This document shows positions 58,750 through 63,905 of a stretch of 64,000 nt of DNA, piece after piece. How positions within the stretch are numbered: the first letter of the stretch is position 1; every line of letters begins with the position of its first letter. The notes beneath the pieces are model-generated. The model saw only the letters and a program-made list of their open reading frames with translations. It had not been told where the DNA came from and did not search any database. The stretch spans positions 1-64,000 of the forward strand of contig JAUIKF010000043.1 of NCBI GenBank assembly GCA_030430575.1, read 5' to 3'. The stretch is from Bacteroidia bacterium (GTDB taxonomy: Bacteria; Bacteroidota; Bacteroidia; J057). The position numbers and the translations under genes are program-made.

Positions 58750-59700
58750 ATGCGCCTATATCTACTTCCTCTTCTGGTATTTTTTCTTAGCATTCCTTCT
58801 CTTTTTGCGCAGGCTCCTTATAACCCCTTTGCCGTGGACAATACGCATTGGGGGATGATTTATAAGCCTCCACTCACCATTCCTCCCTATGAAGATATCT
58901 TTGAGTTCCATACACGTGGAGATACGGTTATAGGTGCATACACCTACCAAAAGGTCTATTATCAGGATATGCGTTCGAAGAATTTAGACTATGATCCTCC
59001 CTGGGTTCCGGTGGATATTCCTCACCTCATGGCCTTGATTAGAGATGATACTATAGCGAGAAAAGTCTATGCAATTCAGCTTGATTCAGCGCGGTGGGCG
59101 TGTGAGTGCCCGCAGGGAAAGGAGTTTTTGCTCTACGACTTCTCTCTGGAAGTGGGGGATAGTGTAAACCTGTGTATAGAGGGGGGAGCAGATACTGTAA
59201 GCGGGGTTTTTTACGCACCTCTTTATCGAGAGCCAGGAGCAAATATTGATAGCGTGAAATATATTCAATTTTCTTATGATTTGGCCTGGGATATCGGGAC
59301 AATATCTGAAGTTTGGGGTTCTGAGCGAGGGCCATTTATTCAGAAACTGACCTCTGTATCGTCTCCACATAGGGGGTATTATTTTTGTCGGACCTCAGGA
59401 GCACCCTTTTGCAATATTCCTGGATTGGCTATTGAAAAATATCTATCATCTCATGTATGGGAAATGGGACCTAATCCCAGCCGAGATCATATCTGGGTGA
59501 GGTGGAAAGGAGTGGGTTTGGATTTGCCTAATCAGGTAGTTCTATATGACCTTCAAAGAAGACCTGTTTTCAACACTTTTTGGACGGGAGCCGAGCCATT
59601 GGAGGTAGATATGAGGCCTTTCACAGAAGGAGTATACATGATCGCTGTGTACAGTGATGATGCGTTTTGGGGGTACCAAAAAGTAGTGGTGGTGCGGTAG
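58750..59700 (+). CDS. T9SS-secreted protein
   Basis: A 316-aa protein with a signal peptide (cleavage near SLFAQ), an unrecognised beta-rich body (about 22-230) with two cysteines near WACECPQGK and a further CNI pair, and a C-terminal T9SS type A sorting domain (MGPNPSRDHIWVRWKG … LYDLQRRPVF … FTEGVYMIAVYSD … KVVVVR). The signal peptide and sorting tail together predict surface exposure or release. It is the first of the cargo genes at the right end of the window, divergent from typA. Confidence 0.8.
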   Translation: MRLYLLPLLVFFLSIPSLFAQAPYNPFAVDNTHWGMIYKPPLTIPPYEDIFEFHTRGDTVIGAYTYQKVYYQDMRSKNLDYDPPWVPVDIPHLMALIRDDTIARKVYAIQLDSARWACECPQGKEFLLYDFSLEVGDSVNLCIEGGADTVSGVFYAPLYREPGANIDSVKYIQFSYDLAWDIGTISEVWGSERGPFIQKLTSVSSPHRGYYFCRTSGAPFCNIPGLAIEKYLSSHVWEMGPNPSRDHIWVRWKGVGLDLPNQVVLYDLQRRPVFNTFWTGAEPLEVDMRPFTEGVYMIAVYSDDAFWGYQKVVVVR

Positions 59701-59909
59701 GTGGAAGTTCGAGCGTTAGATAGTTCAGGGTTTGAGCGTTAAAGAAATAATTTAAGGAAGGGTATTTAGCTAATTACAATGTATAGGCAAGCCTTGCCGG
59801 GCTTTGCCAATGAGGAAGTTCTATCCAATATAACGGATGATCTCCTATCCTATAGCAGCCATAGAAACATCATATATTTTTCCCAATTTTCACTTCTAAG
59901 CCTTTTTGT

Positions 59910-60368
59910 ATGAAAAAGTATGCCTTATTATGCCTCTTGTCTGGAAGCTTATTAGCTATTTCTCAGATGCCTAACTATGACATTTATGACCTCAGAGCCT
60001 TTGCCAGAGACTCTTTGACAGATTCGGTATTCAACAAGACTGTAGACCGCTATTCCAAATTATGGGAAGTACGCTTAAGTCCTCATGGTGATTTTAGCCG
60101 TGCAGCGGATGCGATGTATGAGTATGTGGATGGCTTTAACGAAAATATGACAGCGCGTTATGCTTCTTCTGCTAATTGGCGGGATATAGGGCCGACGGGC
60201 ACTAACTCAACTACCTTTGCCAGTGGCGTGGCATCGAATTGCTGGGCAACCCCACCTTTCCTCAAACGCCTGGTGCCAATGGCTTGCTCGCCCAAGGCAA
60301 GGCTGAGATCATCAATGGTGCCTGGATCGAGCACGCTCGCAACGCCATCTATACCTGGGACGGCGTAG
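59910..60368 (+). pseudogene. 5' fragment of a T9SS cargo gene, broken at about 60220-60230
   Basis: The frame starts with a signal peptide (MKKYALLCLLSGSLLAIS) and reads as a normal mature N-terminus up to about residue 105 (ANWRDIGPTGTNSTTFASG), a motif that in other Bacteroidota proteins opens a beta-propeller/VPS10-like repeat region. After it, the frame turns into improbable protein (CWATPPFLKRLVPMACSPKA) until a stop at 60368. At this spot a different frame becomes coding. The real fragment is therefore about 59910-60225; the rest of the original gene is missing. Confidence 0.75.
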
Positions 60369-62272
60369 ATCACTCCACCACCGCAGGCGGACTGATCATC
60401 GCAAAAAATGCTACCTTTAAGAACAACCGCCGATCCATCGAATTTATGGCCTATCAATCCATCAACGGAGACCCCAACCTCAGCGAGTTTGAAAACTGCA
60501 CCTTTGTCGTGGATGATGACTATCAGGGGAGTGATCCGTTCCTTGCCCACATGACCCTTTGGGGCATTGATGGCTTGGAGATTGAGGGATGCCGTTTTGA
60601 GAATACGATGACGGACGGGACGCTTTTTACCAATTATAATGACCGAGGGACAGGCATTTATGCCATTGATGCAGACTTTGAGGTATTTCCCCTCAGTCCC
60701 ACGCAAAAATGTGTATTCCAAGGCTTAGGATCAGGGATTTATGCAGGGCAAATCGGTTCGCTATCGACGTTTTCAGTGAATGAGAGTGATTTTCTCTACA
60801 ATATTGTAGGGGTCAATGTGCAGGGGATCAAGAATTTTGAAGCGATCGATAATACCATCGAAATAGGTACCAACCCGGCACTTCCACCTATTCCGACAGA
60901 TCCCAATATCCATAAAGGCATATATATCACCCAAAGTTTTGGGTTTGATGTGGAAGAAAACACGATTTGGGGTTCTGAAAACTTTGAGATTAACCCTTCT
61001 ATCAAAGTAGGAATTGAAGCAGATAACTTAGGTCCTACTCATAATGAAATCCATTATAATAACTTGGCTTCACTAGACTTTGGCAACCTCGCAAAAGGTG
61101 AAAATAGGCACGCTACAAATGGGTTAGGACTAGTATATACCTGCAACCAGAATATCGATAATCAATATGATTTTCTGGTAGAGTTTTCACCAAATTCAGA
61201 TCATGGAATAGCATCTGTGCAACAAGTAGATGCTTCTAATGGTGCTAGAAATACCTTTTCTTTTACTGGTGGCACTGGTACAGGGGATTTTATTAATCAG
61301 ATGGATGATGATATTGATTATTACTTTCAGAATCTATATCAGACTACCGAAAAACCAGTTTCTATCTTAAATACAACTTTGATTAGTGTTTCTGGTGCAT
61401 CTACCTACTCCTGTGGAGGTACAGGCACTTCTAGATTAGCAGGAATCAATAAAGAAGATATTCCGGCCCTTATTACTTCCTATCAACACCAACTAGATTC
61501 TTTATTCCAGATTTCTAATCAACATCTTACAATAGAATCTCGTGCTTATACAGCAATCCAAAACGAGATTAGCGATGTAGTCTATCAATTAGTTAAATTA
61601 GAATATCAAAGAGGCACGCGAGTTAATTATGGTCAAATCAGGAAATGGTTAACCCTCCTCAATAATCTATCAGGTGCTTACGCTATGGTAGAGACCTATT
61701 TGGAAGAAGGCAAATGGGCAGAAGGCATGAAGTTTCTAGCCGAAATCCCTCGAAATTATTCCTTATCCCCCACTCAAAAAGAGGACTATCAGGCTTACGT
61801 CAAAGTCAAACAATTGCTGTTTTCACTTCATCAAGAAGACAAAGCTATCTATCACCTATCCCCTACCCAACACCAAGAGTTGGTACACCTAGCCGAAGCA
61901 GACAGTAATCTAGCTGCCATCCAAGCCCGTAATATTTTGGGTCTTATTGCCTATACAGGAATGCAAGTATATGATGGTCAAGAAGGCGTTCCTGTTTCAG
62001 GAATTAATATTAGTGATATGCCACGTCTAAAGCTCTATCCTAATCCTGCCATGAACAAGGTAAATATTCGTTATCATTTGCCACAGGGAATAGAAACAGG
62101 GCTGGTGCAAATAGTTGACATTCAGGGGAATGTGCTATATCAAGAAACTGTGATATCTGAGAACAAGCCTCTTTTGGTCCAGACAGATCACCTAGCGGCA
62201 GGGATGTACCTGTGCCGCCTGATCGTAGACGGGAAATCTAGCCTGAGTAAAAAGCTAGCAATCATCAAATAA
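60239..62272 (+). CDS. T9SS beta-helix surface protein, 5'-truncated
   Basis: This frame (677 aa from TTG 60239) encodes a parallel beta-helix (IIAKNATFKNNRRSIEFMAY, FENCTFVVDDDY, LEIEGCRFENTM, about 25-280), a helical middle (about 400-590) and a T9SS type A tail (KLYPNPAMNKVNIRYHLPQG … QIVDIQGNVLYQ … AAGMYLCRLI … KLAIIK). The protein motif WRGIELLGN already begins at 60224, upstream of any start, so the original gene was longer. The missing 5' part (signal peptide included) was replaced by a fragment in another frame, so the product is probably not exported as it stands. Confidence 0.8.
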   Translation: MLGNPTFPQTPGANGLLAQGKAEIINGAWIEHARNAIYTWDGVDHSTTAGGLIIAKNATFKNNRRSIEFMAYQSINGDPNLSEFENCTFVVDDDYQGSDPFLAHMTLWGIDGLEIEGCRFENTMTDGTLFTNYNDRGTGIYAIDADFEVFPLSPTQKCVFQGLGSGIYAGQIGSLSTFSVNESDFLYNIVGVNVQGIKNFEAIDNTIEIGTNPALPPIPTDPNIHKGIYITQSFGFDVEENTIWGSENFEINPSIKVGIEADNLGPTHNEIHYNNLASLDFGNLAKGENRHATNGLGLVYTCNQNIDNQYDFLVEFSPNSDHGIASVQQVDASNGARNTFSFTGGTGTGDFINQMDDDIDYYFQNLYQTTEKPVSILNTTLISVSGASTYSCGGTGTSRLAGINKEDIPALITSYQHQLDSLFQISNQHLTIESRAYTAIQNEISDVVYQLVKLEYQRGTRVNYGQIRKWLTLLNNLSGAYAMVETYLEEGKWAEGMKFLAEIPRNYSLSPTQKEDYQAYVKVKQLLFSLHQEDKAIYHLSPTQHQELVHLAEADSNLAAIQARNILGLIAYTGMQVYDGQEGVPVSGINISDMPRLKLYPNPAMNKVNIRYHLPQGIETGLVQIVDIQGNVLYQETVISENKPLLVQTDHLAAGMYLCRLIVDGKSSLSKKLAIIK

Positions 62273-62280
62273 TTCACATT

Positions 62281-62304
62281 GGGGGATGTCTTTAGGCATC
62301 CCCC
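62281..62304 (+). terminator. Hairpin terminator after the beta-helix cargo gene
   Basis: GGGGGATG and CATCCCCC form a perfect 8-bp stem with an eight-base loop, followed by the T-rich TTATACTTTT. It covers an upstream ATG (62286) of the next frame, which argues for the later start at 62319. Confidence 0.7.
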
Positions 62305-62318
62305 TTATACTTTTACCT

Positions 62319-63905
62319 ATGTTACAAAAAATACTATTGGGAAGTATTCTTCTTTTTTTAGGCTTAAAATGCCTTCCTCAAACTACCTTTAATCAGTTTC
62401 ATAGATTTGGATTCAAAGAGGTCGAACTACAAGGGGTGATTTCCACAGATTCTGCAATTTATGGTTTGGGACGAGTAGAAGATTTTGCTGGAGTTTCAAA
62501 TTATGGGATCATTTTCATCAAATACGATCTCCAAGGAAACCCACAAAAATGGCATATTATAAAGGATTCCTTAAAGTGGTATGAGGTTCCAACTGGTGAA
62601 CTCCTCCAAACATATGATAAAAATTTTGTAGCAACGGGTAGAGTCGATTATTATAGGAATCCAACCGCTTTAGTTAAAGGTTTTTTTATCAAATATTCGC
62701 CTGATGCTGATGTCCTTTCATATCAAGAATATGAGCCCGATCCCCCCCCCCCAATCTACAATTGGGATATTATGCATTTAGAGGCTATCGCCCAAACACC
62801 TGATAGTGGATTTGTTGTAGTTGGCTCTAGTACAGATAACCCTCAACCTGACATATTGGCCCTGAAATTAGATAAAGAAGGCCATGAAATCTGGCGTAAA
62901 CACTATGGAAGCCCCTTAGTTGAAGAAGGTAAGACCTGCTGGGTGGATCAAAAGGGAGATATTTACATAGGGGGAAAGGAACACAATTTCCCTTTGCCTG
63001 ATCCAGAAAATGTAGGTAGAAATTACCTGATCAAAACGGACGCCCAAGGAGATGTAATCTGGGAATATCGTTCCCCTATTACAGAACTCTATACAGGGAT
63101 ACATGACCTGCTTCAACTTTCAAATGGCGACTGGGCTTTTTTGACCTATGAAGGGGAAGAATATCCACACCCTGGGGATAGTACGCAAATCAATATTGGT
63201 GAATATCGGATGATCGAGTACTTAGATAGCAATTTTAATCGCTTGTGGCAAACCCGCTTGGATGCTATGAGGGATATAGAGAAAATATATGAAATCGAAG
63301 AAACATCTGATGGAGGAATTGTTGCTATAGGTAAACATAGAGATTATGATTCTGTATGGGGGACAAAAATAAATAAGGGTTGGGTTACAAAAGTGTCAGC
63401 CCATGGTGATATTCTTTGGAATCGATATTATAAGCACATCATTGATAGTACAATTGCAGGAAGCTTTTTAGATATCACTGTAGCCCAAGATGAAGGATTA
63501 TATTTAGTAGGAACTATTGACTCCTTCAGAGGAATTCCAATTCAAAATCCTCCCAGTTTTGAAGGCGCCTGGCTCCTCAAGACCGACCAGCACGGCTGCC
63601 TGGTCCCTGGTTGCCACCTCAGCGACGCCATCGATCCCGACAAGGAAAACCTCGGCCGTGTAAAGACCTTCCCAAATCCGGCCTCAGATCACCTCTATGT
63701 GGACTACCAAGCAGATCGGCCACGAGCGGTGCAGGTACGCCTGCTAGACCTCGAAGGGCGGCTGGTGCACCAGACACAGGGGAAAGACCAGTCGATCACG
63801 TATATCTTCCCTCTGGCAGACTTGCCCGCAGGGATTTACCTATTGCAAGTGGAGGTGGAAGGGCGTGTGGTGTATGGGGAGAAGGTGGTAAAACTCCAAG
63901 AGTAG
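62319..63905 (+). CDS. T9SS-secreted repeat protein
   Basis: A 528-aa protein from ATG 62319 (MLQKILLGSILLFLGLKC signal peptide). The body has repeated blade-like units typical of Bacteroidota PQQ-like/SBBP-type propellers (GIIFIKYDLQGN, ILALKLDKEGHEIWRKHYGS, YLIKTDAQGDVIWEYRS, WVTKVSAHGDILWNRYY, AWLLKTDQHGCLVPGC). It ends with a T9SS type A domain (KTFPNPASDHLYVDYQ … RLLDLEGRLVHQ … LPAGIYLLQV … KVVKLQE). The 3' end from about 63560 is distinctly more GC-rich than the rest. Confidence 0.83.
   Translation: MLQKILLGSILLFLGLKCLPQTTFNQFHRFGFKEVELQGVISTDSAIYGLGRVEDFAGVSNYGIIFIKYDLQGNPQKWHIIKDSLKWYEVPTGELLQTYDKNFVATGRVDYYRNPTALVKGFFIKYSPDADVLSYQEYEPDPPPPIYNWDIMHLEAIAQTPDSGFVVVGSSTDNPQPDILALKLDKEGHEIWRKHYGSPLVEEGKTCWVDQKGDIYIGGKEHNFPLPDPENVGRNYLIKTDAQGDVIWEYRSPITELYTGIHDLLQLSNGDWAFLTYEGEEYPHPGDSTQINIGEYRMIEYLDSNFNRLWQTRLDAMRDIEKIYEIEETSDGGIVAIGKHRDYDSVWGTKINKGWVTKVSAHGDILWNRYYKHIIDSTIAGSFLDITVAQDEGLYLVGTIDSFRGIPIQNPPSFEGAWLLKTDQHGCLVPGCHLSDAIDPDKENLGRVKTFPNPASDHLYVDYQADRPRAVQVRLLDLEGRLVHQTQGKDQSITYIFPLADLPAGIYLLQVEVEGRVVYGEKVVKLQE

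Follow-up and report, generated by a model that had tools for sequence, protein, structure and literature searches.

A T9SS cargo locus with its start and its sorting domain in different frames: most likely a single gene of an ordinary kind that broke recently, not a junction of two unrelated genes

The window, that is, the whole stretch of 64,000 nucleotides analysed here, carries a T9SS cargo locus in which two open frames of the forward strand overlap by 160 nt (Table 1). Frame 0 (59910-60365), which begins MKKYALLCLLSGSLLAIS, encodes a start that resembles a signal peptide by eye (MKKYALLCLLSGSLLAISQ) and leads to ANWRDIGPTGTNSTTFASGV, and past this motif 45 codons remain before the stop at 60366-60368. 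Between the stops at 60203-60205 and 62270-62272, the -1 frame stays open for 688 codons (60206-62269), and within it WRGIELLGN at 60224 is followed by a beta-helix and a T9SS tail. The earlier note on this DNA had described both frames in this way and had placed their junction in GCCAGTGGCGTGG, which is located at 60219-60231; this description was borne out. The frame of the 5' part (N half) is open up to the joint and that of the 3' part (C half) has no internal stop over its 688 codons, and no extra stops or frameshifts that would indicate further decay were found in either remaining frame. The frame break in the region of 60224 was confirmed to be real, and it is not a product of chance, since homologues exist for either half separately and a single intact protein matches the two in different frames.

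Residues 604-680 of the C half matched Por_Secre_tail (PF18962, E = 9.6e-11), and the tail also matched TIGR04183 (E = 7.8e-10), each above the cut-off of the respective family. An AlphaFold2 model of residues 1-400, made with 25 aligned sequences, was nearly all beta with a mean pLDDT of 83.7, and its best PDB matches were phage tailspikes and polysaccharide-active enzymes, with lyases and epimerases among the nearest structures. The top match was the Sf6 tailspike (E = 4.4e-4, TM 0.42 by query length), and E ≤ 0.001 was reached by just 2 of 402 matches. We take the matched tailspikes and polysaccharide-active enzymes to be parallel beta-helix proteins, and the model together with these nearest structures supports the beta-helix assignment. 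The locus shares with T9SS type A sorting-domain cargos (TIGR04183 / PF18962) the sorting domain and, as judged by eye, the signal-peptide-like start. However, the start at 59910 and the sorting domain are in different frames, and thus the product cannot be a complete T9SS cargo.

Table 1 Features at the broken cargo locus and immediately downstream of it
Feature	Position	Strand	Basis
5' remnant in frame 0: start codon, signal-peptide-like segment (by eye), N-domain up to FASGV	59910..60230	+	Match to L087 aa 62-130
Putative deletion junction with possible short direct repeat TGGCGT at both breakpoints	60224..60229	+	Invariant W to the right, SG(V/I) to the left
Out-of-frame tail of the first frame, to the stop at 60366-60368	60231..60368	+	Frame reading
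Beta-helix region from W-R-GI, -1 frame	60224..61423	+	Homologues, alignment, AlphaFold2 model, structure matches
Region between the beta-helix and the T9SS tail (approximate boundaries)	61424..62032	+	Partly conserved in relatives: second matches of the C half to L034, L035, L036, L037, L039, L040
T9SS C-terminal sorting domain (Por_Secre_tail) and stop	62033..62272	+	Residues 604-680 of the C half
Terminator-like stem-loop just after the stop	62281..62304	+	Consensus match only; 1 found vs 2.1 in shuffles
Neighbouring T9SS cargo gene with sorting domain	62316..63905	+	Homologous to the gene after the helix cargo in several relatives

The locus had been read in the earlier note as two unrelated cargo types joined out of frame. 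In a comparison with five target stretches, however, which gave the strongest single result of the analysis, single proteins matched both halves in two frames. Aa 62-130 of L087, an open frame of 1,754 aa, matched 60033-60233 in frame 0 (E = 7e-7), and aa 954-1386 of the same protein matched 60224-61486 in the other frame (E = 3e-33). L061 also gave one match to each half (aa 87-146, E = 0.009; aa 912-1276, E = 4e-45). Intact homologues that span both halves in a single frame were thus found, and for this reason the fusion of two unrelated genes was not our first choice.

Helix matches were present in 7 of the 13 genomes of the bacterial family, the genome of the window itself (G000) being counted, and in 8 of the 22 genomes of the order (12 matches in total), and a scan of the named genomes gave 47 helix loci. 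The ORF was free of truncation by a contig start in 43 of the 47 loci, and all 43 have 214-989 residues in frame before W-x-GI. This motif therefore lies inside the protein and is not its opening, and the view of the earlier note, in which WRGI...GN opens the beta-helix of a different cargo type, is not supported. Similarity of the upstream stretch to the propellers of G007, G012 or G002 (E ≤ 1e-3) was detected in 11 of 46 cases, with L057 and L062 matching the propeller end only; in-frame propeller similarity precedes the helix at 9 of the 47 loci and in G002, besides two loci having just the propeller end. Open frames that lead from the propeller to the W-x-GI helix were found in G007, G012, G002, L061, L066, L070, L071, L072 and L087, and also in L078, whose 3' end is cut; the uncut frames of this type measure 1,540-1,811 aa from stop to stop. 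The Pfam family Sortilin-Vps10 was assigned to L034, L035 and L036, that of L034 being slightly below the cut-off. The intact form in the relatives consists of a signal peptide, the N-domain, a Sortilin/BNR-type propeller, the beta-helix, a further conserved region and the T9SS sorting domain, all in one frame.

As in the cargos of Bacteroidota that combine a Sortilin/BNR propeller with a beta-helix (L056, L059, L036, L061, L066, L070, L072 and L087), the locus has the N-domain, which is not exclusive to such cargos, the W-x-GI beta-helix, the C-terminal region and the sorting domain, and as in L072 it also has the downstream neighbour. In contrast to these cargos, it lacks the 751-826 codons from the propeller up to W-x-GI, and its frame is broken. 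The distance between the propeller-start motif and the W was 751, 769, 770, 770, 783, 797, 799 and 826 codons in eight relatives, while it was 0 in the window, where no propeller and no sequence at all stands between SGV and W-R-GI. About 2.25-2.5 kb is therefore absent in the window. The earlier note had named orthologues with the same architecture in one frame as evidence against its reading, and this was borne out in part: relatives do carry both motifs in one frame, but with this long segment between them.

We consider it probable that a single T9SS cargo gene, encoding a very large secreted surface protein, underwent an internal out-of-frame deletion here and is now a recent pseudogene. 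A deletion had been among the options in the earlier note and stands as the best reading. The stretch from the start of the propeller (SGV) to the W-R-GI of the beta-helix would have been lost, likely by replication slippage or another RecA-independent joining at the short direct repeat TGGCGT. The intact protein would presumably leave the cell via the T9SS and either stay on the surface or be released from it. With the segment gone, translation from the real start would yield 152 aa, and no signal peptide would precede the beta-helix and the sorting tail any longer, so that export would be lost. The lack of a product in which a signal peptide leads the beta-helix and the tail points to a pseudogene, and both remaining frames being clean, with no further stops in the C frame, suggests that the break is recent. 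A deletion is based on the observed frame break, the architecture of the relatives, the single proteins matching both halves, the absence of an orphan propeller from the genome search described below and the unique junction.

The W to the right of the joint was invariant in 25 of 25 aligned rows. To the left of it, eight relatives have SGV or SGI (L056, L059 and L072; 3 of 8), SAGI (L036) or, in the other four, GTGM, GGVG, EGIG and CMGL, and the motif SG(V/I) is thus only moderately conserved. The letters of the window for SGV (AGTGGCGTG) and WRG (TGGCGTGG) overlap; if both matches were inherited, at least TGGCGT would have been present once at both breakpoints, and from SG(V/I) on the left and the invariant W on the right it can be proposed as a short direct repeat at the joint, in which case the event would be typical of deletions between short repeats. 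Repeats of at least 14 nt in 59700-62400 amounted to two direct and two inverted pairs, each of 14 nt and imperfect, and no pair flanks the joint. Since no intact allele of the same species was seen, we infer the lost sequence and the exact breakpoints from homologues whose identity to the window is about 30-40%. Illegitimate recombination is considered likely to have produced most of the small variable segments found among aligned E. coli genomes (PMC2884548). The locus resembles deletion pseudogenes formed by such RecA-independent recombination in its clean internal loss, the possible short repeat and the lack of a long repeat in the locus, although its repeat and breakpoints are derived from distant homologues and not from an intact sister strain.

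A search of the genome for the missing halves and for homology at the junction, which the earlier note had proposed, yielded no orphan propeller fragment with the L034 propeller as a query (E ≤ 0.01). The 27 matches to this query were 27-41% identical and all lay inside open frames of 572-1,674 aa; thus this search gave no sign of the lost piece elsewhere in the genome, and relocation of the propeller within the genome was rejected, the matches being just distant paralogues. The N half has no second copy on the 127 contigs, where the other two matches had E-values of 0.6 and 1.4. Antigen shuffling, which the earlier note had suggested, is disfavoured by the lack of a second N half and of an orphan propeller, and the only other helix match in the genome (contig G000:C43) is 31% identical and itself front-less, so neither silent donors nor an intact copy for expression turned up.

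The N half could also have come from another gene of the same broad family. According to this explanation, which we regard as unlikely, two cargo genes recombined, so that the 5' end of one propeller cargo now precedes the beta-helix half of another and the remainder is gone. N-domains and propellers are indeed common to several cargo genes of the genome, and at some helix loci the beta-helix module is preceded by N-terminal domains of other kinds, which, from reading the sequences rather than from a family search, we take to be subtilase-like or metalloprotease-like. The best evidence for such a fusion is a step in third-position GC at the junction: the N half has a value of 0.43, which rises to 0.65 over the 300 nt past the joint, drops to 0.22 midway through the C half and ends at 0.46, against a mean of 0.50 with a standard deviation of 0.09 in 127 chunks from the 24 other ORFs of the window. 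The swing within the C half exceeds the step at the joint, and the step together with the fall inside the C half leads us to suppose that the C half may be a mosaic. On the other hand, there are intact proteins that each match the two halves in the correct order, the genome search recovered neither a second N half nor an orphan propeller fragment, and the downstream neighbour is one found after other helix cargo genes. When the N half was compared with 61 proteins (46 of the helix set and 15 ORFs of G000, certain genes being included twice), the top matches were L087 (E = 1.6e-8), L066 (4e-4), L061 (8e-4) and L072 (0.009), all of which have propeller and helix, while the best propeller cargo of G000 gave E = 0.5. 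The clear lead of these four points the N half towards the helix family. Among 16 matched N-termini, L087 came first and ranks 1-7 were helix-linked, with six paralogues of G000 at ranks 8-11, 13 and 14; however, ranks 6-9 were practically tied (z = 4.98 and 4.76 for helix-linked N-termini, 4.73 and 4.69 for paralogues), and 3 of the 10 helix-linked N-termini (L078, L036 and L071) were at ranks 12, 15 and 16, beneath at least four of these paralogues. With a profile that included the propeller start, three distinct paralogues of G000 scored near or above the N half of the window, and the N-domain is thus a front end common to propeller cargos generally.

It seems improbable to us that the organism has the missing segment and that the joining of reads removed it. 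The genome is a draft of 127 contigs, and four related genes from other drafts show an in-frame stop or a small change of frame close to their front, as would suit an artefact; yet the 221-base junction stretch matched the genome, beyond itself, over only 14-46 bases with E-values of 0.07 or worse, and different losses of the same region are seen in separate genomes. The junction DNA being unique in the genome, misassembly driven by a repeat was rejected, and the assembly collapse suggested in the earlier note finds no repeat common to both sides of the joint; 6-8 shared bases would not suffice for the collapse of an assembly graph. It is scarcely credible, in turn, that the locus is still functional, whether through a frameshifted single product or as two separate proteins. 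Both frames are open over their overlap and free of further lesions, and the pieces of the related locus in G004 are offset by the same -1, which speaks for a programmed -1 frameshift; nevertheless, this candidate was rejected, as no slippery heptamer of the form X XXY YYZ exists in any frame at 60200-60365. Furthermore, no signal peptide was seen by eye at the first possible start of the C frame (TTG at 60239), and the junctions in G004 and G001 differ, that of G001 with a different frame offset as well.

The deletion of an internal segment from a single gene therefore remains our preferred reading. Most likely, the two motifs do not come from unrelated genes but mark either end of one giant secreted protein, and annotation of the locus as one broken gene is accordingly preferable to two genes or a chimera. 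In the titles and abstract openings covered, no literature on this propeller and beta-helix gene family was found, which we do not equate with its absence from print.

The 12 helix matches in the order were classified, G021:C145 being left out of the breakdown. The intact propeller type is represented by G007:C444, G012:C643 and G002:C1; G012:C464, open as far as seen, and G004:C93 have another N-domain, and G007:C1055 is cut by a contig end. All or most of the propeller is lost out of frame in 3 of the 12, namely the window (G000:C67), G001:C2 and G004:C39, and the front is absent up to about helix position 80 in 2 of the 12 (G005:C117 and G000:C43). At G004:C39 (L037:1478-4900), the N-domain (matching L087 aa 33-115, E = 0.003) is joined to a late part of the propeller in another frame, the second piece corresponding to L034 aa 746-1720, with the same -1 offset as in the window. 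The locus at G001:C2 (L038:220-1500) was 63% identical to L072 over aa 882-1126 and 46% over aa 1607-1780; it has kept a signal-peptide-like start (by eye), resumes at aa 882 in another frame and shows a later in-frame loss in the second half of the gene, from about aa 1126 to the region after 1607 (L072 numbering). G001, although of the same genus, lacks the deletion of the window. The endpoints differ, and thus the losses in the window, G001 and G004 are separate events.

Breakage in this family is more than expected, though the sample is small, the assemblies are drafts and small lesions are also present at other helix loci. The separate breaks in related genomes suggest that a very long gene is easily lost, and the broken relatives form a small natural series in which selection and neutral decay could be compared as causes of the shedding of such surface proteins. 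The tally of 3 of 12 propeller-less and 2 of 12 front-less matches among the 22 genomes of the order could also be read as repeated removal of the propeller in the bacterial family, the start and the beta-helix with its tail being left open, either because loss or switching off of an exposed propeller is selected, e.g. by phage or predator pressure, or because the DNA favours it. We regard this as very improbable.

Small lesions between the signal peptide and the main domain, none of them a large deletion, were observed at four other loci: an in-frame TAG in L068, an in-frame TGA in L085, and frame changes, seen by eye, in L081 and L101. The signal peptides of the 47 loci were scored by a crude hydropathy rule that served for picking suspects only. 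The second beta-helix cargo of the genome (G000:C43, L042:2766-4715), 31% identical to the window helix, is missing all of the part ahead of helix position ~79, and the gene after it is related to the one at 62316-63902 of the window.

This downstream gene, minus its sorting tail, had matches in 14 of 36 stretches downstream of helix genes (up to 4 kb each, E 1e-4), where the 14 count one locus twice (G004_C39 = L057) and the 36 hold G007:C1055 twice. In 8 of the 14 (seven distinct loci), the match begins less than 90 nt from the end of the helix gene, and a relative stands directly after the helix gene in G004 (L057), G005, L072 and G000:C43. A T9SS cargo gene of ~530 aa right after the helix cargo in several genomes possibly makes a conserved two-gene unit. 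For the upstream gene (58750-59697), a search of eight family genomes at E ≤ 1e-5 found a relative in just one, G001, where it lies on a different contig.

The genome has at least 150 T9SS sorting-domain matches (150 scored of 536 candidates), and the tail of the window gene is outside those 150. Thirteen short cargo loci were inspected by eye, 12 with an open frame under 300 aa among the matches listed and C126, a biased sample that does not give a rate. Ten looked small and intact with a signal-peptide-like start, C75 lies near a contig end, the cargo gene on C90 (L127) looks frameshifted, and C47 (L119) carries an orphan sorting tail of 98 aa.
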